Source of the DNA: Desulfobacterales bacterium
GTDB taxonomy: Bacteria > Desulfobacterota > Desulfobacteria > Desulfobacterales > UBA11574
DNA: 32,951 nucleotides
NCBI GenBank assembly: GCA_030145345.1
Contig: JAQYVT010000026.1
Coordinates: 1-32,951 of the forward strand
Direction of reading: 5' to 3'
Of this stretch, positions 5,912 through 27,815 are shown piece after piece. The position numbers and the translations under genes are program-made. Position 1 is the stretch's first letter, and each line of letters starts with the position of its first letter. The notes beneath the pieces were generated by a model, which was not told where the DNA came from, did no database searches, and saw nothing but the letters and a program-made list of their open reading frames with translations.

Positions 5912-7063
5912 CTAAAGGTTTGACGTAGATATAACGGTGGAATTATAACATATATTTTTTAAGTTCCGAGGGTTGACGTTAACGCCCAATCCAGGGCTAT
6001 TCAAAGGCCCCGCTTTTCCTTTTGACTCAAAAGATACATTTTTGGACGTAACGTTTTCCCCAAGCAGAAATTCATCATAAGAACCATCATAGTATACGGC
6101 ATCCCGACATAGAAGACACAGAACCCTGCCTGCAGCGGAAAGAACGCCGGATTCGCCCAACTGACATCCGACCTGAAACGGAACTCCATTCAGCCTTAAA
6201 TAGTCGATCAATTTTAATGAATTTCTAAACCCTCCGCATTTGGACAGCCTTATGTTGATCATTTTATAATAACTTTCTTTGACAATCTTTTCCACATCAT
6301 CGAAGGAACATGCCGACTCATCGGCCATTAGGATTATGCCTGAATTTTGCATTAGACCGGCAAATTCAGCAATGTCCGGATTACCTGGCATCATAGGCTG
6401 TTCAATAGCCTTGACCCTGTATTTTTTAAGGAGAGGTATATGCCTCAAAGCAAGTTTCCTGTCCCAGGCACAATTGATATCCACCCTTAGATCATAATCT
6501 CCAGCAAACATCGAGTGAACTGTATCGAGTATTTCTTTATTTTGTTCAAGATGTTTCCCAAGTTTCAGCCGGAGCGCATTTATTTTTAATGTCTTAATCA
6601 ATCGACACATTTCCATTATTTTTTTTCTATTATCGAGCGGAATTGCGGCGCCGTAATGAATATTGTCGGCAATGAAATCTTTGGAGAAATAGTCCATGAC
6701 GTATCGATCTTGACTTTTGCCCAAGGCATCTAATAGCGCTGTTTCAAGGGCGCAGATCGCAGCATTCTGCTCCCTTCCACGTGTAATATCATCGATGAAA
6801 TACCATATCTGTGAAGCATCGTTCAATTCCTGGGGAAACGTATCTTGCTGTATGAAATGGCGAATGCTTTTGGACGTACTTCCCGGGGACTCACCCGTTA
6901 CGTAGGATCTGGGAGCGCCTTCTCCGAATCCTAGAATTTCCCCCTGTTGGGCGATGATTTCGACAATGATATTATTGACATAAGATCTTTTCCTCAAAGA
7001 ATGAGAAAAATCGAATGAAAATGGGAGCTTTACTTGATGTATGACGACCTTGTCTATTTGCAC
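5912..7063 (-). CDS. Enolase-superfamily enzyme, dipeptide-epimerase-like
   Basis: 383 residues, muconate-lactonizing subgroup. The active-site ladder is visible: 'LRLKLG' (Arg165-x-Lys167, where KxK is usual), Asp195-x-Asn197, Glu221 ('IEQPM'), Asp248 ('ADESA') and Lys275 ('RLSKCGG'). The two facing bases Lys167 and Lys275 and the three Mg2+ ligands are kept, so a 1,1-proton transfer (epimerisation) at an alpha-carbon is feasible. The 'VTGES' lid motif resembles L-Ala-D/L-Glu epimerases. First codon is GTG; the upstream kinase's TAG stop overlaps it by one base, implying translational coupling. The PP-loop gene follows 14 bp later. The real substrate could be a dipeptide or an N-acyl amino acid. 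Confidence 0.8.
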   Translation of the reverse strand: MQIDKVVIHQVKLPFSFDFSHSLRKRSYVNNIIVEIIAQQGEILGFGEGAPRSYVTGESPGSTSKSIRHFIQQDTFPQELNDASQIWYFIDDITRGREQNAAICALETALLDALGKSQDRYVMDYFSKDFIADNIHYGAAIPLDNRKKIMEMCRLIKTLKINALRLKLGKHLEQNKEILDTVHSMFAGDYDLRVDINCAWDRKLALRHIPLLKKYRVKAIEQPMMPGNPDIAEFAGLMQNSGIILMADESACSFDDVEKIVKESYYKMINIRLSKCGGFRNSLKLIDYLRLNGVPFQVGCQLGESGVLSAAGRVLCLLCRDAVYYDGSYDEFLLGENVTSKNVSFESKGKAGPLNSPGLGVNVNPRNLKNICYNSTVISTSNL

Positions 7064-9072
7064 TATTCTTCTATTGTATCCATTGCGTGTGATGATCGAT
7101 CGGAATTGCCGACAGGGAGGGTTAGGGTGAAGACAGATCCCTCGTCAAGATCGCTTTTTACGTCTATGGTTCCGCCATGATCCTGCATATTTTGATGGGC
7201 GATAAAAAGCCCAAGGCCGGTCCCACTATGCATGCTGCTTTTGTGTTTTGTGGTAAAATAAGGATCGAATACATTGTCAATCATGGATTGAGGAATCCCG
7301 GGGCCGTTATCTTTGATTTCGATGCAAACGGTGTCCGGGCGTCCCTTTTTGATACAGTTTTTTGTGGTAAACCCGATCTTACCACCTTCGGAGGTGAATT
7401 CCACTGCATTTGAAAGCAGGTTCAAAATAACCTCCTTCATCTTTTCACTATCCAGCCACACCCGGTGGATGCTGAGATCGAATTGACGGGTAACTTTAAT
7501 TTTTTTGGCGTTGCTCTGGGGCGAAACAAGAAGAATCATTTTATCTATGAGGTCGTGAAGGTTATTTAATTCAAAGTTTGATTCTCTTTTCTTGACCAGA
7601 TCCAAGAGTTCCGTAATGAGGTTGTTGATCCGACCGGTTTCTTCCAGTGCAATATTATGGAAGTTTTCCCGGAATTCTTTATCATCGTATTTTTGCGGCA
7701 TCATCTGGATAAACGTTCCGATGGCGGTCATGGGATTTTTAATTTCATGGGCCAGTCTCGCCGCCAAGTTGCCCAGAAAGGAGAATTTTTGGGACCGGCT
7801 CAAAAGCGCTTGAGATTTTTTCAGTTTCATCATCTGTTCTTGGAGCCTGCTGTAAAGTTTTGCATTTTCTATGGCTATGGCGATTTGCGAAGAAAAAATT
7901 TCCAGTGTTTCCCGGGTTTCTTTGGGCACACCCTTTCCACCAACAGCATCGGTAACAAAAACACCGATCACTTTGGAACGGGTGATGAGGGGTATTACAT
8001 ATACCGAGGTCGGTTTGCCGTGAGTTAACATAATGTTTTCTTTTCTCAAGGTTGAACTTTTTACTTCAGGTACGTATTCCGAACGTCCAGTGTTGGCTAC
8101 CCTGACAAGGATGTTGCTTAAACGATTCAGGGAAACCCTGTAATTCTGGATCATCTCCGGCACTTCACCACCAAAACCAATGCCGTGTATATATTCAAGG
8201 GCCCCCTCATCTTCATTGACGAGCATGATTACGGCGCGGTTGATCTTGCACACATTGGACAGGATGTTCATGATAACGGTCAAGAGTTGTCCCAGATTCA
8301 GGACAGAAAGGATCGCTTTGCCCGTCTCATGTATGGCTTCAAGTTGTTTAACTTTATTATGGAGTTCTACATTGAGTTTGTTGACTTCCTCGTATTTTTG
8401 CTCAATAATTTCCTTGTCCTGTTCCATTTCATCTATCGTTTCTTTGAGGACAGATTTAGATGTGAAAAAACGAGATAATATCTCATGAAAACGGTTCCTA
8501 AAAGGCCATTTATAAAGGTACTCACAATAAGGAGCGCCTTCAAAAAAACAGCATTTCTCTTCAACGACTGAGGGTTTCCCGCCCCAAATCATCGGCAGGT
8601 AAGTATAAGCGCCCTGATTATATAAACAAATGTCTTTGGTTACATCCATCTGGGGATTCCAATAGAGACGGAGAACAGCCGTGCTCCCTTCGATCTTAAC
8701 GAGATCTATCGTCTTACTCTTGTTCCATTTGTCATTTACTATTTGAAGGTTCTTGAGGACTTTCTTAACCGACCAGAACGCCTTGAAGATAATTCTTTGG
8801 GCATAACCCAGAGACGTTTTTTCGATGGCATATCTGGCTATTTTATGGGCCACCATTTCGTCGTTGAGCATCAATTTTGCCCGTTTAAACAATATGGAAA
8901 TCACAGTACAAGAAATCCAGTTGTTAGGATCGCTTAAAAAGCCCTCGGGATCCGGAAGGGCATCGATAGCAGGGTCGAGGTTTTTGAGAAGGCTTGAAAG
9001 GTCACCTTGATAATGTGCCTTCATATAATCAATGATCGCTATAGCATTTATGCAGCTTGTTTCTTTTTTCAT
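7063..9072 (-). CDS. Sensor histidine kinase: V4R-like domain, coiled coil, GAF, HisKA, HATPase
   Basis: 669 residues, no membrane segment, so a cytoplasmic sensor. Residues ~10-190 resemble a V4R-type ligand domain: the end 'CCFFEGAPYCEY' matches the cysteine-containing close of V4R domains in regulators such as XylR/DmpR. A coiled coil (~205-250) is followed by a GAF domain (~250-405). The phosphoacceptor is His442 in 'LAHEIKNP', an NtrB/AtoS-like H-box. The ATPase domain has the N-box (Asn551-Asn555), 'DNGPGIP' (588-594) and 'GTGLGL' (617-622). It lies 11 bp after the radical SAM gene and overlaps the epimerase start. The NtrC-type regulator encoded divergently at 12585 is the obvious partner. 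It senses a soluble, perhaps aromatic or metal-bound, ligand; this is inferred from the V4R fold only. Confidence 0.88.
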   Translation of the reverse strand: MKKETSCINAIAIIDYMKAHYQGDLSSLLKNLDPAIDALPDPEGFLSDPNNWISCTVISILFKRAKLMLNDEMVAHKIARYAIEKTSLGYAQRIIFKAFWSVKKVLKNLQIVNDKWNKSKTIDLVKIEGSTAVLRLYWNPQMDVTKDICLYNQGAYTYLPMIWGGKPSVVEEKCCFFEGAPYCEYLYKWPFRNRFHEILSRFFTSKSVLKETIDEMEQDKEIIEQKYEEVNKLNVELHNKVKQLEAIHETGKAILSVLNLGQLLTVIMNILSNVCKINRAVIMLVNEDEGALEYIHGIGFGGEVPEMIQNYRVSLNRLSNILVRVANTGRSEYVPEVKSSTLRKENIMLTHGKPTSVYVIPLITRSKVIGVFVTDAVGGKGVPKETRETLEIFSSQIAIAIENAKLYSRLQEQMMKLKKSQALLSRSQKFSFLGNLAARLAHEIKNPMTAIGTFIQMMPQKYDDKEFRENFHNIALEETGRINNLITELLDLVKKRESNFELNNLHDLIDKMILLVSPQSNAKKIKVTRQFDLSIHRVWLDSEKMKEVILNLLSNAVEFTSEGGKIGFTTKNCIKKGRPDTVCIEIKDNGPGIPQSMIDNVFDPYFTTKHKSSMHSGTGLGLFIAHQNMQDHGGTIDVKSDLDEGSVFTLTLPVGNSDRSSHAMDTIEE

Positions 9073-21158: not shown

Positions 21159-21187
21159 TTGACTTCTCGGAAAGCTTCGAGTATTAG
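21159..21187 (+). promoter_or_regulatory. Sigma70-like promoter of non-coding unit A
   Basis: TTGACT (21159-21164), 17-base spacer, TATTAG (21182-21187); predicted start near 21194. Confidence 0.5.
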
Positions 21188-21193
21188 ATAAAA

Positions 21194-21336
21194 GCTCAAA
21201 TTGTGGCAGAAGCCGCGCTTGTTTGTATTTTAAGACAAAACCCAAGACATAAATTCATCGGAAGCATTAAAAGCTAACCAACAGGCCACGAAGGCTGATC
21301 GCATCAAGAAGATGCGTCGTCTCGTGGCTTTTTTTG
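21194..21336 (+). ncRNA. Putative small RNA, unit A
   Basis: About 142 nt from the predicted start to a terminator at 21285-21335 (GCCACGA/TCGTGGC, inner GCATC/GATGC, T7). A 5' stem GTGGC-AGA-GCCGC lies at ~21202-21216. The core 'TTGTATTTTAAGACAA--CCCAAGACATAA' is shared with unit B. No reading frame with a ribosome site was seen. Function unknown. Confidence 0.5.
21285..21335 (+). terminator. Rho-independent terminator, unit A
   Basis: GCCACGA (21285-21291) pairs with TCGTGGC (21322-21328), with a second inner stem GCATC/GATGC, and seven T follow. Confidence 0.8.
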
Positions 21337-21387
21337 TTTCAGAATGGAAAAGTGTCAGTAAGACAATTTTTGTTTATGATAATGTTG

Positions 21388-21545
21388 AAATTGCAGTAGA
21401 AGCTGCTCATGGTTGTATTTTAAGACAATGCCCAAGACATAAGATTCTTCGCCGGATAGTGGCGGAGATGACAATAGAGTTGAAGTTAGAAAGGCCACGA
21501 AGGTCCATGCTTATAGAAAGGGAAGCGGCCATGTGGCCTTTTTTG
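21388..21545 (+). ncRNA. Putative small RNA, unit B (homologue of unit A)
   Basis: It repeats the core of unit A. The 5' stem has different bases but still pairs (GCAG/CTGC). The terminator at 21491-21545 is AAGGCCAC/GTGGCCTT followed by T. Its promoter is unclear: the segment after terminator A is a degenerate version of the promoter that follows terminator B. The exact 5' end is therefore a guess. Confidence 0.45.
21491..21545 (+). terminator. Rho-independent terminator, unit B
   Basis: AAGGCCAC (21491-21498) pairs with GTGGCCTT (21533-21540), and the 3' arm continues into a T-run. Confidence 0.8.
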
Positions 21546-21547
21546 TT

Positions 21548-21576
21548 TTGAAATGGAAAAGCGCCATAAGGATAAT
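21548..21576 (+). promoter_or_regulatory. Sigma70-like promoter of the porin/nickel operon
   Basis: TTGAAA (21548-21553), 17-base spacer, GATAAT (21571-21576). It lies directly after terminator B, giving a leader of about 47 bases to the porin start. Confidence 0.55.
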
Positions 21577-21629
21577 TTGCTTCAGCCAAAGTCCGCATGC
21601 TCAATCTTAAAAATAGGAGGTTGTGTCAA

Positions 21630-22766
21630 ATGAAGAAAATGATCCTGTTGTTGTCATGTTTGATTCTGGTTTGCGCACAAGCCAGCTCCATTATGGCGCA
21701 AGACTCAATGCCGTCTGAACAGGCAGAGCAAACCACCAAAGTCGGCGGCGTCAAAAGCCTTGAAGATCGAATCAAGCAACTTGAAGACGCTATCAAAAGA
21801 CAACCGGAAAGCGACAAGTGGTACGATCGTATTCAGATCAGCGGGCTCATCGAGGTCGAAGCCAGCCATGGGAAAACCGATTTAAAAGATCCGGCCGAAG
21901 AGGATGAAAAAACCAGCGATTTGGATCTGTCCACCGTTGAACTGGTGGTGGATGCTAAAATTGCAGAACACGTCGACGGACATGTCATGTTCAAATATGA
22001 AGAAGACGATCTTTTTGTGGATGAAGGCTTTATCGCGCTGGTAGGTACGGAAACCTTTCCCGCTTATTTGATCGCCGGGCGGCAGTATATCCCTTTTGGT
22101 AACTTCGACACTCATTTCGTCACCGACCCGAACACCCTGATTTTGGGAGAGACCAACGAGGGGTCAGCCGTGGCTGGTTACCGATTCGGAGGTGAAATGG
22201 TCGATGTTTCGGTGGGTGCCTTTAACGGTAGCGCTAAGGAAAGGGGCAAAGATGACATCATCGACAGTTTTGTCGGGAGCATCGTTGTGACTCCCTTTGA
22301 AAAGCTGATTTTCGGTGCATCGTATACCTCGAATCTGGGCGGTTCGGATACATTTAATACGGTCGTGGTGGATCCGGACAATCTTGATTCGCTGGTCGGC
22401 GGCTGGAGTGCCTTTGTCAGTTTCAAATTTTTAGAGCGCTTTAAGCTGATTGGTGAATATGTCGGCGCACTCGATAATTTCAAAGACGGAGAAATATATG
22501 ATGCCGCCGATCCGAAAGAGCGTAAGCCCTCGGCCTGGAATGCGGAATTAGGTGTGACCATAATTGATAATCTGGAACTGGCGGTTCGCTATGATGGATC
22601 TGATGACGGTGGACCAGACTTTTTACCGGAATCCCAGTATGGCGTAGTGTTGAATTGGGGCTTATTTAAAAACACCAACCTGGCATTTGAATACTTGCAC
22701 GGAGAATTCGAAGATGATGCCCAAGAGACAGATTCTTTTATCGCTCAGCTTGCGATAGAGTTTTAG
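21630..22766 (+). CDS. LbtU-type outer-membrane porin, probably metal-related
   Basis: 378 residues from ATG 21630, with AGGAGG 9 bases upstream; an earlier ATG at 21597 lacks a ribosome site. A signal peptide (to about 'SIMA') is followed by a short coiled coil ('SLEDRIKQLEDAIKRQ'), then a beta-barrel of alternating hydrophobic strands ending in Phe, as outer-membrane proteins do. The arrangement and the 'WYDRIQISGLIEVEAS' and 'YIPFGNFDTHFVTDP' segments resemble LbtU siderophore porins. Its place at the head of a nickel transporter operon suggests it passes a nickel complex through the outer membrane; that substrate is inferred from context, not seen. The acidic loops ('DPAEEDEKTSDLDL') could attract cations. 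Confidence 0.75.
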   Translation: MKKMILLLSCLILVCAQASSIMAQDSMPSEQAEQTTKVGGVKSLEDRIKQLEDAIKRQPESDKWYDRIQISGLIEVEASHGKTDLKDPAEEDEKTSDLDLSTVELVVDAKIAEHVDGHVMFKYEEDDLFVDEGFIALVGTETFPAYLIAGRQYIPFGNFDTHFVTDPNTLILGETNEGSAVAGYRFGGEMVDVSVGAFNGSAKERGKDDIIDSFVGSIVVTPFEKLIFGASYTSNLGGSDTFNTVVVDPDNLDSLVGGWSAFVSFKFLERFKLIGEYVGALDNFKDGEIYDAADPKERKPSAWNAELGVTIIDNLELAVRYDGSDDGGPDFLPESQYGVVLNWGLFKNTNLAFEYLHGEFEDDAQETDSFIAQLAIEF

Positions 22767-22887: not shown

Positions 22888-23694
22888 ATGCGTACGGTAA
22901 ATTCAATTTTGTCAGTCTTGGTGGCAACAGCTGTGTTGTTGGCTGCTAGTCCGTCGTTGGCCCATTTCGGTACTATCACACCGTCGGATGACATCGTGAC
23001 CCAGAATGATCCCAAAACCTTGAACCTTCAAATTAAGTTCATCCATCCCATGGAGCTGCATTATATGGAAATGGTCAAACCCGAGCAGTTCGGCGTGGTC
23101 CATGATGACAAAAAGACCGATTTGCTTAACAGCCTTCAGGCGACCAAAGGGAAAAGCGCCGACCAAAAAGAAAAATTCACCTTCTGGACCACCGACTATA
23201 AGATCCGCAGGCCGGGAGACTATACCTTCTATGTCGAACCCACGCCTTACTGGGAGCCTGCCGAGGACTTATTCATCGTTCATTACACTAAAGTGTGCGT
23301 AAATGCGTTAGGCTTAGAAAAAGGCTGGGATCATCCGGTTGGCCTCGAGACGGAAATCGTCCCTATGACCCGTCCTTACGGACTATGGACCGGAAACCTC
23401 TTTACCGGACAGGTGCTGCTCAAAGGCAAGCCGGTCCCCTTTGCCGAGGTGGAAATCGAGTATCTGAACGAGTCACCTGGAAATATCAGCCTTGTTATCC
23501 CTCCGGCGGACCCCTACGTGACCCAGGTGGTCAAAGCCGATGCCAACGGCGTTTTTAGTTACGCCATGCCCAGGGCCGGCTGGTGGGGATTTGCGGCACT
23601 TAACGAAGCCGACTGGAAGCTGAAACACGACGGCAAGGAAAAAGGAGTAGAGATCGGCGCCGTCTACTGGGTCCATACCCAGGATATGAAATAG
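22888..23694 (+). CDS. nikK: NikK-like periplasmic DUF4198 protein of nickel ECF transporter
   Basis: 268 residues. The signal peptide ends 'SPSLA', so the mature protein would begin with histidine ('HFGTITP'). The remainder is a DUF4198-type beta-rich domain as found in the extra periplasmic component of nickel/cobalt ECF systems, with the conserved stretch '[20 protein letters not shown]' and a C-terminal Ig-like part ('[22 protein letters not shown]'). Expected to bind or hand over Ni2+ in the periplasm. ATG 22888 has AAGGAGG upstream. A 92-bp gap separates it from the next gene. Nickel rather than cobalt is inferred from the NikK/NikL company. Confidence 0.8.
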
Positions 23695-23786: not shown

Positions 23787-24119
23787 ATGAAAACACTTTC
23801 GCATCTTTTCATTCTGGTTGTTGTGACATTACTGCTCAGTGGAACCGCACTGGCGCATAAGGTCAACGTGTTCGCTTATGTCGAAGCAGGGAAGGTTTAT
23901 ACCGAGAGCTATTTTCCAGATGGCAGTCCAGTGGAAGGTGGTAAGGTGTTGGTTTATGACAGTCAAAATAACCTGCTTTTGGAAGGGGTGACCGACAAAA
24001 AGGGACTATTCAACTTTGCCGTACCCAAGGTTGATGATTTGACCATTGTCATTGAAGCAACCATGGGACACAAGAACAGTTTTAAGCTGAAAAAAGCCGA
24101 ATTGGAGGCTGGGAGATGA
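23787..24119 (+). CDS. NikL N-terminal half: exported beta-domain protein
   Basis: 110 residues. The signal peptide ends 'GTALA' and would leave a mature N-terminal histidine ('HKVNVFAYVE'). The rest is a carboxypeptidase-regulatory-like beta-sandwich ('GSPVEGGKVLVYDSQNNLLLEGVTDKKGLF'). In many sulfate reducers this domain is the front part of a ~200-residue NikL/CbiL protein that ends in a membrane helix. Here the frame stops after the beta-domain, and the next gene starts in an ATGA overlap and supplies coiled coil and helix. Ribosome site AAAAGGA. Family assignment rests on recalled features of NikL, so moderate confidence. Confidence 0.7.
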   Translation: MKTLSHLFILVVVTLLLSGTALAHKVNVFAYVEAGKVYTESYFPDGSPVEGGKVLVYDSQNNLLLEGVTDKKGLFNFAVPKVDDLTIVIEATMGHKNSFKLKKAELEAGR

Positions 24120-24412: not shown

Positions 24413-25042
24413 ATGCATATTTCCGACGGAGTTCTCCCCATTTCCGTTACGGTCGGCTGTTATGTCGCCAGTGCTGCGCTGGTGGCCTGGAGTGCCCGCC
24501 GCACCCGCAACGAGGAACTGCCCAAGTTGGCAGTAATGACGGCGGCCTTTTTTGTCGCTTCGCTGGTCCATGTGCCTTTTGGACCGACCAGCGTCCATCT
24601 GATCATACCGGGCCTGACGGGGGCATTGCTGGGGCCGTCCGCCTTTCTCTCCATAGGCCTTGGCCTACTGCTGCAAAGCTTACTATTTCAATTTGGCGGT
24701 TTGACTGCGCTGGGCGCCAATGCCTTAATGATGGGGTTGCCCGCTCTGGCGTGCGGTTGGTTCTTCCAGAGATACAAAGGTCGAACTCAGTTGCGGCAGG
24801 CGTTTGTCGGCGGGTTGGCAGGCGCTGCAGGGACAGCGCTGGCAGCAATTATTCTGGCGATACTCCTGGTTGCCGGTGGTGAGGATTTTTTCGGCGTTGC
24901 CAAAATTGCGCTGCTGGCTCATATTCCGGTCATCATCGTTGAGGGCGTAGTGAGCGCATTTACCATCGGCTTTCTGACCCGTGTCAAGCCGGCCCTGTTG
25001 CAAACGTCGTTTCTGCGCCAAACCAAGGCGGCCCATGGCTGA
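24413..25042 (+). CDS. nikM: NikM/CbiM, substrate-binding membrane component of Ni(Co) ECF transporter
   Basis: 209 residues, about six membrane helices. The N-terminus 'MHISDGVL' has the obligatory His2 that, with the free amino terminus, coordinates the metal in NikM/CbiM; a second conserved histidine lies in 'LVHVPFGPTSVHL'. It selects Ni2+ (or Co2+) and delivers it through the module energised by NikQ and NikO. ATG 24413 has AAGGAG 7 bases upstream. It overlaps nikQ by 8 bp. The N component is not seen as a separate canonical gene. The region is clearly richer in G+C than the upstream signalling operon. Confidence 0.88.
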   Translation: MHISDGVLPISVTVGCYVASAALVAWSARRTRNEELPKLAVMTAAFFVASLVHVPFGPTSVHLIIPGLTGALLGPSAFLSIGLGLLLQSLLFQFGGLTALGANALMMGLPALACGWFFQRYKGRTQLRQAFVGGLAGAAGTALAAIILAILLVAGGEDFFGVAKIALLAHIPVIIVEGVVSAFTIGFLTRVKPALLQTSFLRQTKAAHG

Positions 25043-25955
25043 TGTGATCAACATCCAGATGCCTTTATGGCAACTGCTCCTGTTGCTGTTGATACCATTA
25101 GCAGCGATAACGATCATGGTAGTTTGGCTGCGACGCGTTGCTTACAAGCACAGTGCACCTGAGGAGAAACGTGACTGGTCGGTCCCACCCTTGGCCGATG
25201 GAAGCGGTACTTCCTTACTGCACTGCTGGGATGTACGCTGCAAGATCGTGACGATACTGGTTTGCAGTTTTGCCATCGCTTCCCTGAGTCACTTGGAGCC
25301 GGCGCTGGTCGCCATCGGGGTTTCATTGATAATTTTGGTGGTCGCAAGGGTTTCCTTTGCCAAGGTGCTGTTGCGGCTATTGGCGATTACCGGTTTTGTC
25401 TGTATGTTTTTAGTGGTCATGCCCTTTTCAGTCCCCGCACACAATGGTGACACGGTGCTGGTTTTCAACGGGATGGACTGGCTCGGTTTCAACCTGCGCG
25501 GTTTGCGACTGGCTGCGACGATTGCAGCCAAAGCAATTGCTATCGCGGTGTTGATGGAGCCGTTGCTGTCTACCGCACCTCTGCCGGTTACCCTGCACGG
25601 ACTATCCCGGCTCGGTGCGCCGGAGATGGTTGGACAGATGGTATTGCTCAGCTACCGGTATTTGCATGTCTTTCGTCACGAAGCCTGGCGTATGTCTTCC
25701 GGCATGCAAGTACGCGGATTCCGAAAGCGCACTGATCTGGCAACGCTACGTGCAGTGGGCAATTTTATTGGAATGCTTTTTGTTCGCAGCTTCGAACGGA
25801 CCGAGAGGGTTTTCGATGCCATGCGGGCGCGTGGTTACCGGGGACGGTTTCCGGAACCGGCCGAGCTGCGTTTACGGACCAGAGATTTGCTGCTGGCGGC
25901 GGTCTGGCTGACCGCTGGAGCGGCACTGATTGCATATGACCGGATTGCCTGGTAA
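25035..25955 (+). CDS. nikQ: NikQ/CbiQ, transmembrane coupling component
   Basis: 306 residues from ATG 25035, inside the nikM end. About five to six helices. The ATPase-coupling segments near the C-terminus are recognisable: 'SSGMQVRGFR' and 'ERTERVFDAMRARGYRG', both with the Ala/Arg-Gly pattern of EcfT coupling helices. The N-terminal ~45 residues contain an extra membrane segment and are less conserved. A longer frame from 24981 would run deep into nikM without reason. Connects NikM with the NikO ATPase. nikO follows after 12 bp. Confidence 0.88.
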   Translation: MADVINIQMPLWQLLLLLLIPLAAITIMVVWLRRVAYKHSAPEEKRDWSVPPLADGSGTSLLHCWDVRCKIVTILVCSFAIASLSHLEPALVAIGVSLIILVVARVSFAKVLLRLLAITGFVCMFLVVMPFSVPAHNGDTVLVFNGMDWLGFNLRGLRLAATIAAKAIAIAVLMEPLLSTAPLPVTLHGLSRLGAPEMVGQMVLLSYRYLHVFRHEAWRMSSGMQVRGFRKRTDLATLRAVGNFIGMLFVRSFERTERVFDAMRARGYRGRFPEPAELRLRTRDLLLAAVWLTAGAALIAYDRIAW

Positions 25956-25967
25956 GGAGTAAGCATA

Positions 25968-27815
25968 ATGCATGAACCTCTGCGTCCAATTCAGAAACCT
26001 ACCTTGGATGCTTCCCTATTCAGCATGCGCAGGGTGTTTTATCGTTATCCGGATGATATCCAAGCCTTATCCTGTATCGACTTAGACATAGCCGGCGGAG
26101 ATAGAATCGCTTTGGTTGGACAAAACGGGTCCGGTAAGACCACATTGATTAAACAGCTCTGTGGACTATTGCTGCCGACTGCCGGGGAAGTGCTCTACAA
26201 AGGGGAACAGTTGAAAGGGGAGCATCTGGATCGGAACAGGCTGGAGATCGGCCTGCTTTTTCAGGATCCAGACGACCAGCTCTTCAGCCACACGTTGCTG
26301 GATGACACGGCTTTCGGCCCCCGCCATCAGGGTTTGTCTCGGCAAGATGCGGAGCAGACGGCCCGGAAGTCGCTGCAACGCGTCAACCTGCTTGATATGG
26401 CGTACAAAGCGCCGCACAATCTCAGCTTCGGTCAAAAAAAGCGTGCCGCTTTAGCCGGGCTTCTTGCCATGCAGCCGAACGTGCTGCTCCTGGATGAACC
26501 GACCTCAAATTTAGATCCACATCAAGAGGAGGTCTTCCTCAACCTGTTGAGGGATTTCTCCGGCACCCTGATCTGCATCAGCCATAACCTGATATTTCTC
26601 TATGAACTCTGCGACAGGGCTGTGGTCCTCGATCGTGGTCGCATACAGCATGATTACACACTGCGCGAACTGGTCTCTCAACGTCAATCACTGCGTGAGC
26701 ATGGTCTCGATTTTTCCTTTCGTCTGGTTCACACTGCCTCATCATGTGATCTGGCTCAATCAAAACCACTTGATGAGCTCCATCGAACACCCACTTTGCC
26801 TGATGTATCTGAAGGAAAATCGCTTGTGTTCCTGCGCGACTACCATTATCGGTACCCGGACGGAACACTCGCGTTACACGGCATCAATCTGTCCATTCAA
26901 GATGGCGAACGCATTTCAATCGTCGGTGAGAATGGCGCCGGCAAAACCACACTGTTGTCCTGTCTGCTCGGCCTGCGTCAGGGACTCGGAGAGTTTCATT
27001 TTGCAGGTCGGTTGATGACACGCAGATGGCGCAAGACCCTCTGGCGACGGGTCGGAATGGTTTTTCAGGACTGCGCCGACCAACTCTTCTGTCCAAGCGT
27101 CCGAGAAGAAATAACCTTTGGGCTGCATCAACTCGGCTATTCGAGGGACGAATCTCGCAAACGGCTTACGCAGGTCCTGGCTATGGTTTGTTTGGAAGGC
27201 TTCGAAGAGCGTGTTCCCTTGCATTTGTCCGGCGGTGAACGCAAACGTCTGGCGCTGGCCTGTGTTCTTGCCATGGAACCCAAGCTGCTTATATTAGACG
27301 AACCAACGGCCGGACTTGATCCGCAGGGCGAGGAGCTGCTGCTGGATATTCTGTGTAATCTCGACGTGACCCTTTTGCTCGTCAGCCACGATATGTTTTT
27401 CGTCAATAAATTGACCCGCCGTACCCTGGTGATGCACAGGGGTCGAATTCTGGAAGATATGCCAACCCATGCTTTTTTGCAGGATGAACGACTCGGCAAC
27501 CTCAACGAGTTATCCTACACTTACCGTCGCCGTAGTCGCAGCGCTATCCTGACAATGCAGCACGAACACGAGCATAGTCATTTACACCAGCACCTGCATA
27601 CGCACCAGCATCGGCATGGAGAGGTTGAGCACGACCATTTTCACGAACACGTGCACGAACACACTCACCGCTTCGCGCACATCCATCCTGAGGATGAGAA
27701 AAACCATGATCACATGCCGCGCCGTTACCACGACCACGACCATCCGGGGTATGAGGTTGAAGATCACGATCACGATTACCCCGGGCATGAGAATGAAACC
27801 GATGACCACCACTGA
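25968..27815 (+). CDS. nikO: NikO/CbiO double ATPase with histidine-rich tail
   Basis: 615 residues; two ABC ATPase domains fused in one chain. Domain 1 has Walker A 'GQNGSGKTT' (51-59), a signature 'LSFGQKKR' and 'LLLDEPTSNLD'. Domain 2 has 'GENGAGKTT', 'LSGGERKR' and 'LILDEPTAGLD'. Most ECF systems use two separate chains or a homodimer of ~270 residues. Residues ~532-615 form a tail with 29 histidines in 84 positions, many as H-x-H, sure to bind Ni2+/Zn2+ and likely a cytoplasmic nickel store or sensor. The signature of domain 1 deviates from LSGGQ, so the two sites may be unequal. ATG 25968 has AAGGAG upstream. Confidence 0.92.
   Translation: MHEPLRPIQKPTLDASLFSMRRVFYRYPDDIQALSCIDLDIAGGDRIALVGQNGSGKTTLIKQLCGLLLPTAGEVLYKGEQLKGEHLDRNRLEIGLLFQDPDDQLFSHTLLDDTAFGPRHQGLSRQDAEQTARKSLQRVNLLDMAYKAPHNLSFGQKKRAALAGLLAMQPNVLLLDEPTSNLDPHQEEVFLNLLRDFSGTLICISHNLIFLYELCDRAVVLDRGRIQHDYTLRELVSQRQSLREHGLDFSFRLVHTASSCDLAQSKPLDELHRTPTLPDVSEGKSLVFLRDYHYRYPDGTLALHGINLSIQDGERISIVGENGAGKTTLLSCLLGLRQGLGEFHFAGRLMTRRWRKTLWRRVGMVFQDCADQLFCPSVREEITFGLHQLGYSRDESRKRLTQVLAMVCLEGFEERVPLHLSGGERKRLALACVLAMEPKLLILDEPTAGLDPQGEELLLDILCNLDVTLLLVSHDMFFVNKLTRRTLVMHRGRILEDMPTHAFLQDERLGNLNELSYTYRRRSRSAILTMQHEHEHSHLHQHLHTHQHRHGEVEHDHFHEHVHEHTHRFAHIHPEDEKNHDHMPRRYHDHDHPGYEVEDHDHDYPGHENETDDHH

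Follow-up and report, generated by a model that had tools for sequence, protein, structure and literature searches.

Two tandem hairpin-terminator units, probably serial transcription attenuators, ahead of a porin-nikKLMQO operon of a Desulfobacterales bacterium

The window, that is, the whole stretch of 32,951 nt that was analysed, carries two tandem homologous units (21159-21576) followed by an operon encoding an LbtU-family porin and the nickel transport proteins NikK, NikL, NikM, NikQ and NikO (Table 1). The structured units are indeed tied to a nickel operon, as the initial annotation had proposed. Upstream of the units lie a gene with a tRNA-editing domain and genes with NrfD and ferredoxin-type matches, the latter being presumably DsrMKJOP. 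We infer that the DUF4198 protein of the operon is NikK. In passages of PMC545781, nikK and nikL are named as components of delta-proteobacterial nickel transport. The C-terminal tail of the NikO-like ATPase is very rich in His and Asp residues and is likely metal-binding.

Table 1. Features of the two units and of the operon that follows them (positions in the window)
Feature	Position	Strand	Remark
Unit 1 promoter-like site TTGACT-17-TATTAG	21159..21187	+	-35 begins 43 nt before P1; by eye
Unit 1 P1 hairpin TGTGGC/GCCGCG, loop AGAA	21202..21217	+	close to the putative transcript 5' end
Unit 1 linker core TTGTATTTTAAGACAA..CCCAAGACATAA	21223..21252	+	lineage-specific; not shared by the wider family
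Unit 1 P2 alternative hairpin GGCC-ACGAA-GGCT	21284..21296	+	mutually exclusive with the terminator
Unit 1 intrinsic terminator, apical loop AAGAA	21284..21335	+	folding
Unit 2 promoter-like site GTGTCA-17-TATGAT	21352..21380	+	9/12; 41 nt before P1
Unit 2 P1 hairpin GCAGT-AGAA-GCTGC	21393..21406	+	U-G closing pair; folding
Unit 2 linker core	21413..21442	+	repeat and genome search
Unit 2 additional linker hairpin	21443..21469	+	resembles L004 and L006; missing in unit 1
Unit 2 P2 alternative hairpin GGCC-ACGAA-GGTC	21493..21505	+	folding
Unit 2 intrinsic terminator	21493..21544	+	folding
Promoter-like site TTGAAA-17-GATAAT beyond unit 2	21548..21576	+	10/12
Shine-Dalgarno-like AGGAGG and start codon	21615..21632	+	ATG at 21630
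LbtU-family porin, first gene after the leader	21630..22766	+	NF033652, E 4.2e-81
NikK-like (DUF4198)	22888..23694	+	profile match
NikL, nickel/cobalt ECF subunit	23787..24119	+	NF058648, 102.3 vs cut-off 100
NikM (CbiM family)	24413..25042	+	profile match
NikQ (CbiQ family)	24981..25955	+	profile match
NikO, 615 aa, two ABC ATPase stretches	25968..27815	+	profile match

The homology of the two units, already noted in the initial annotation, was recovered by the repeat search of the window as three repeat pairs. The first one (21191-21252 and 21381-21442) is 62 nt long, 81% identical and 190 nt apart; the second one (21324-21369 and 21533-21578; 46 nt, 78%) spans the terminator ends and the DNA beyond them; and the third one, AGGCCACGAAGG, is a 12-nt pair with 100% identity between the units. 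With up to 3 mismatches, the 30-nt core TTGTATTTTAAGACAA-NN-CCCAAGACATAA was found only at these two sites in the 3.57-Mb source genome, where the reversed-control core had no match. The bases of the 5' stems differ between the units and still pair around AGAA (TGTGGC/GCCGCG in unit 1, GCAGT/GCTGC in unit 2), and both units end in terminators, as had also been pointed out. The predicted terminator energies are -26.4 kcal/mol for unit 1 and -22.9 kcal/mol for unit 2, more stable than shuffled sequences (z -5.1 and -2.9, respectively). Isolated 5' domains presented no extra stability over shuffles (z -1.25 for unit 1 and +0.45 for unit 2), and the whole-unit folds gave z -2.9 for unit 1 and -1.7 for unit 2, the latter cut ahead of its U-tract. 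No Rfam family was found in the window with gathering or relaxed thresholds; five weak matches (best E 0.14) were far below the gathering scores.

Two features had been missed: a promoter-like site before each P1 (41-43 nt) and the ability of the 5' arm of each terminator to fold into the alternative hairpin P2. The predicted energy of P2 is about -4.1 kcal/mol, against the values given above for the terminators, and its pair probability without the 3' arm is 0.77-0.88 in unit 1 and 0.74-0.93 in unit 2. Since P2 is favoured early but is far weaker than the terminator, it would be expected to fold before the terminator and to give way to it unless something holds it, as in antitermination.

The scanner omitted the promoter-like site of unit 1 on account of its final base. 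That of unit 2 is weaker and homologous to post-terminator DNA. The promoter-like site past the second terminator, on which the initial annotation chiefly based its case against an attenuator, is present in the source contig; however, it decays in L004, L007 and L017, that is, in all three aligned relatives. Homologous DNA follows both units, so the likely origin of the tandem is a duplication, downstream of a single promoter, of the segment that begins at P1 and reaches into the DNA past the terminator; this would have given two attenuators in series. Among the loci examined, the only other tandem (<400 nt) was L007, with L059 taken as the same place. Tandem THI elements with one terminator each, described for Desulfovibrio in part of PMC545781, are likewise two homologous attenuators in series, although they belong to an unrelated RNA family.

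Relatives were searched at several levels. At the DNA level, 16 of 96 related genomes had matches, the source genome counted, and many of these relatives present the identical architecture ahead of a metal gene; no such unit was seen in the stretches examined of others, such as L009, L013-L015 and L020. L004, from the same family, has a single unit-2-like copy with TTGACT-17-TATGAA upstream and the same porin downstream, the distance from unit to porin being 88 nt versus 87 nt in the source contig. The source genome also carries a third, weaker copy (L200; C22:58327-58372, minus strand) ahead of an OprB-like porin, with CC-ACGAA-GG followed by A and, by folding, a P1 loop AAUGAA. In named genomes, the pattern GCCACGAAGGN{18,40}CGTGGCYTTTT matched at least 117 stretches; the 80 titles listed are mostly Desulfobacterota-type and include Nitrospira-type bacteria, Clostridia and a few others. 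Desulfatibacillum alkenivorans DSM 16219 and Desulfosarcina cetonica are among the genomes matched. A 'Stahlbacteria' locus (L079) may come from a misbinned contig, because its first protein resembles that of L146. A slightly looser pattern was present in 127 of the 291 genomes of the order, with the reversed control in 2 (G134 and G255), and in 71 of 395 genomes at the phylum level, where no match of the reversed control was seen. No viral contig matched the exact 30-nt core; the terminator pattern had four matches there, of which the one inspected sits in an opposite-strand ORF and is probably due to chance.

To describe the family, 178 pattern matches were collected, 160 of them distinct; GCCACGAAGG is fixed in the search pattern, so P2 variants fall outside this sample. 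Pair statistics were scripted in place of a covariance model because MAFFT, applied to 30 elements, aligned some of the tetraloop P1 copies wrongly. P1 sites were picked by the loop and the closing pair alone, and were considered strict with at least three further pairs. The P1 motif appeared in 99 and its strict form in 77 of the 155 members with sufficient upstream DNA, compared with a strict background of 157 in 13,816 windows of named loci (1.1%). The first four outer positions of the 106 P1 hits are paired at 0.81-0.86 versus 0.38-0.41 in the background, and hits with at least three pairs show all six standard pair types at each of the first three positions. Among the 64 loop triplets, GAA yields the largest number of upstream hairpins and the best ones. 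The 77 strict loops are AGAA (27), UGAA (16), AAGAA (12), AUGAA (8), ACGAA (8), CGAA (4) and AGGAA (2), and the linker between P1 and P2 has a median of 45 nt (range 21-112) in these members. A strict P1 is missing in 78 of the 155 members, some of them with near variants and others probably chance matches (e.g., L083 and L126); the P1 of unit 2 is also outside the strict set because it closes by a U-G pair.

P2 can be written as GCC-ACGAA-GGY, and the base after GCCACGAAGG is C or T in 157 of the 160 members. Its unconstrained flank pair (-1/+2) is formed in 105 of 159 members versus 81.8 (sd 3.8) in shuffles, and the next one (-2/+3) is weakly above them (66 versus 59.0, sd 3.5). When only the 125 members in which T follows GTGGC were counted, the -1/+2 pair gave 74 versus 60.3 +/- 3.4; in the 34 members with C at that place, G always precedes GCC and the test is uninformative. 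GAA is also found in the terminator apical loop of 74/160 members (raw count), and many leaders therefore display three such loops. Regarding the surroundings of the hairpins, TTGAC lies within -65..-28 before P1 in 60 of the 77 strict members, mostly at 38-47 nt (background 3.6%), and a start codon with a Shine-Dalgarno-like site is located no more than 110 nt past the terminator in 51 of them (background 22%).

The relatives are mostly single-copy, running from promoter to gene start, often that of a metal-uptake gene. First downstream genes were scanned for 129 members, each trimmed at 330 aa; the other 31 of the 160 were left out because the start lay more than 310 nt off, a Shine-Dalgarno-like site or an ORF was missing, the protein start was a duplicate, or the member was the window itself. 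Among the 25 commonest of the 53 families found, the tallies were TonB plug 23, DUF4198 16, DUF3842 8, CbiM 7, FmdE 5, ExbB 5, FecCD 4, Peripla_BP_2 4, methyltransferases 4, MetA-pathway-like 4, DUF6802 4, TonB 3, CbiQ 2 and PDGLE 2. The automatic choice of the first gene was sometimes wrong: the true first gene of L041 is DUF3842 at 6866, and in L024 the element is followed by a CooT-like gene that was missed. The first downstream genes are mostly nickel or metal genes, encoding TonB receptors, NikK (DUF4198), DUF3842-CooT, CbiM, FecCD and LarE. Two clostridial cases point to nickel itself, since L029 has LarE-LarB downstream, both over curated cut-offs, and L025 precedes a nickel-type ABC transporter (permease NF045470 above the cut-off, NikA matches below). 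Other targets are not plainly nickel genes, such as a fumarase-like gene in the Desulfobacter vibrioformis locus L051, a flavin reductase-like gene in L084 and four DUF6802-type proteins.

Altogether, sequence comparison shows a conserved leader family with a promoter, P1 and P2/terminator, mostly tied to metal-uptake genes and present twice in series here. We consider it highly probable that the two units are serial cis-acting transcription attenuators in the porin-nikKLMQO leader and that they belong to a nickel or metal-uptake RNA family of anaerobes. No description of such an element was found in the open-licence papers searched, and the available excerpts of PMC11109978 contain no match for nickel, cobalt, TonB or porin. 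From this layout we infer antitermination through P2, with nickel as the putative signal. RNA polymerase would start just upstream of P1, as suggested by the conserved promoter position; P1 would fold first, and P2 is predicted to fold once GCCACGAAGGY emerges. If P1 and P2 were bound through their NGAA/ANGAA loops, P2 would persist, the terminator would be deprived of its 5' arm and read-through would follow, whereas in the unbound state P2 (about -4 kcal/mol) would give way to the terminator (about -23 to -26 kcal/mol) and transcription would stop. Read-through would be expected when nickel is scarce, because most targets are uptake genes. Two attenuators in series would be expected to make this response steeper, as argued for tandem riboswitches.

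Concerning what binds the loops, a trans-acting protein that reports nickel status is somewhat favoured over direct binding of nickel by the loops. Direct sensing, which we hold possible rather than probable, would mean that the docked NGAA/ANGAA loops recognise Ni2+ or a nickel complex with no protein involved, in the manner of the guanidine-II riboswitch. The loop consensus of guanidine-II (mini-ykkC) is ACGR in both hairpins, and in that system, too, two near-identical tiny hairpins are the entire recognition unit. As a passage of PMC9481103 describes, its pockets are built from the loops of two similar hairpins, and this precedent, the presence of two small hairpins that share a loop motif and are joined by a linker of variable length, and a spread of the element that exceeds any one tested partner gene would suit direct sensing. 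On the other hand, few loop bases are conserved, P1 loops are of 4 or 5 nt, and DUF3842 is strongly associated with the element, although lineage could account for that association. Moreover, ACGR occurs in none of the 77 strict P1 loops, no guanidine-II match came from the Rfam search of the window, and the element differs from guanidine-II in its metal-uptake genes and its terminator overlap. The NiCo riboswitch shares with the element nickel/cobalt genes and transcription termination, but it had no Rfam match in the window, and the targets of the element are mainly uptake genes. In the text available from PMC9481103, the NiCo riboswitch is stated to be found in no tandem arrangement.

If a protein reads the loops, the candidate with the best link by gene association is the DUF3842-CooT pair. 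At the phylum level, DUF3842 was found in 68 of the 71 element genomes versus 71 of 324 others (odds ratio 81, kinship ignored; Fisher p 4e-33, uncorrected for phylogeny, with 18 weak matches excluded). No DUF3842 profile match was obtained in the element genomes G380, G503 and G550. DUF3842 and CooT-like genes were each seen in 13 of the 114 named element loci (~7.2 kb), often in the order element-DUF3842-CooT, which extends to element-DUF3842-CooT-element-CbiM in L058, L090 and L127 and to the same order with a last gene other than CbiM in L068. In the source genome, the DUF3842 gene overlaps that of CooT (L169, 1495-2135), with no clear element directly before DUF3842, unlike L058, L068, L072 and L108.

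Each protein as the sole partner was rejected. CooT, matched in 256 of the 291 genomes of the order, was absent in 7 of the 26 genomes with named pattern matches, and pattern matches were present in 3 of 20 listed CooT-negative genomes (35 in all). DUF3842 was absent in 5 of the 26 genomes and is missing in G380 despite the presence of the element and CooT: compared with G441 (L255), G380 (L254) lacks DUF3842 at the place that the gene has in G441 and retains CooT, the element and CbiM. This contrast between G380 and G441 is a natural test of the role of DUF3842. Conversely, G295, G296 and G300 have DUF3842 and no CooT match, and no CooT-like ORF was seen by eye next to DUF3842 in the stretches examined of three CooT-less Clostridia. 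Since G380 lacks DUF3842 and some Clostridia lack CooT, the pair may be members of the regulon instead of its sensor. Another nickel link is seen in L249 (G300), where DUF3842 adjoins a gene that, by eye, looks like LarB because it resembles the one in L029.

In the structural models, neither fold indicates RNA-binding. The DUF3842 model (pLDDT 78) has Rossmann-like neighbours and a borderline Foldseek match to FtsZ (E 1.5e-3), with nothing significant against solved structures, and the CooT model (pLDDT 92.9) matches solved CooT and then, at low Z, F1-epsilon and RimM-type barrels. CooT carries the COG label of a predicted RNA-binding protein. In part of PMC6006190, CooT is described as an all-beta, nickel-binding dimer of 7 kDa with an unclear role in the maturation of CO-dehydrogenase.

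The initial annotation read the units as duplicated genes for a trans-acting small RNA and not as an attenuator. Each unit does have a promoter-like site and a terminator, and short terminated RNAs are predicted. However, this reading is very improbable: the relatives are mostly single cis leaders of genes, mainly metal genes, L004 has just one unit, and the P2 alternative is conserved, which the post-unit promoter is not in the three aligned relatives. A terminator arm with a conserved alternative hairpin is what an attenuator is expected to present. As short terminated RNAs would be expected from an attenuator also with the operon off, a Northern band alone cannot separate both readings. There is a similarly slight chance that the units are ordinary terminators with a favoured stem sequence and no regulation; the search motif does sit in the terminator stem, but P1 enrichment, promoter spacing, P2 flank pairing and gene context would be left unexplained.

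The layout is identical to that of the targets of ANTAR proteins, where P1 is followed by a P2 overlapping the terminator (PMC8934654, in part). As in the dual-hexaloop targets of EutV, NasR and AmiR, two small hairpins share a loop, the second one overlaps the 5' arm of the terminator, and several copies are found per genome. Nevertheless, the element has loops of 4-5 nt, NGAA (47) or ANGAA (30) in strict P1 and ACGAA in P2, and not hexaloops with A1 and G4, its regulon is one of nickel and metals, and its shortest linker (21 nt in the 77 members) exceeds the 5-12 nt given for E. faecalis eut in an excerpt of PMC3369931. An AANGAA-like P1 loop is a possible reading for a few members outside the strict set (L047, L136 and L200), and that of L200 carries A1 and G4. 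ANTAR proteins (PF03861) were matched in 13 of the 26 genomes with pattern matches and not in the other 13, among them the isolate Desulfobacter vibrioformis; the source genome has one such match. Classic dual-hexaloop antitermination is the least credible reading, and an ANTAR protein as the general partner was rejected by loops, linker and host gene absence. The element would work like the ANTAR or guanidine-II dual-hairpin systems, although the tests applied place it in neither.

Two further regulators were considered. CsrA/Rsm proteins recognise GGA in a hairpin loop, and this triplet was present in 2 of the 77 strict P1 loops and is not contained in ACGAA. NikR represses nikMQO and nikK in delta-proteobacteria, according to passages of PMC545781, so its target operon is of the same type, but it is a repressor at the DNA level. 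The only NikR box match in the window had 3 mismatches, lies at 7905, away from the units, and is at chance level.

Finally, we put forward tentatively, with a little less than even confidence, a hitherto unrecognised multi-phylum nickel regulon at the RNA level, whose dual-hairpin NGAA/ANGAA attenuator would be read by a nickel-status protein of the DUF3842-CooT pair or by nickel held directly between the two loops. NikR is the regulator described in the available part of PMC545781 for the delta-proteobacteria studied earlier. If the proposal is true, nickel control would gain an RNA layer in sulfate reducers, in Nitrospira-type bacteria and in some Clostridia, through a compact antitermination layout with only partial resemblance to ANTAR and guanidine-II systems. 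It would also join genes whose role is unclear (DUF3842, FmdE, DUF4198, porins and TonB receptors) in one metal regulon, and would give CooT and DUF3842 a testable job.
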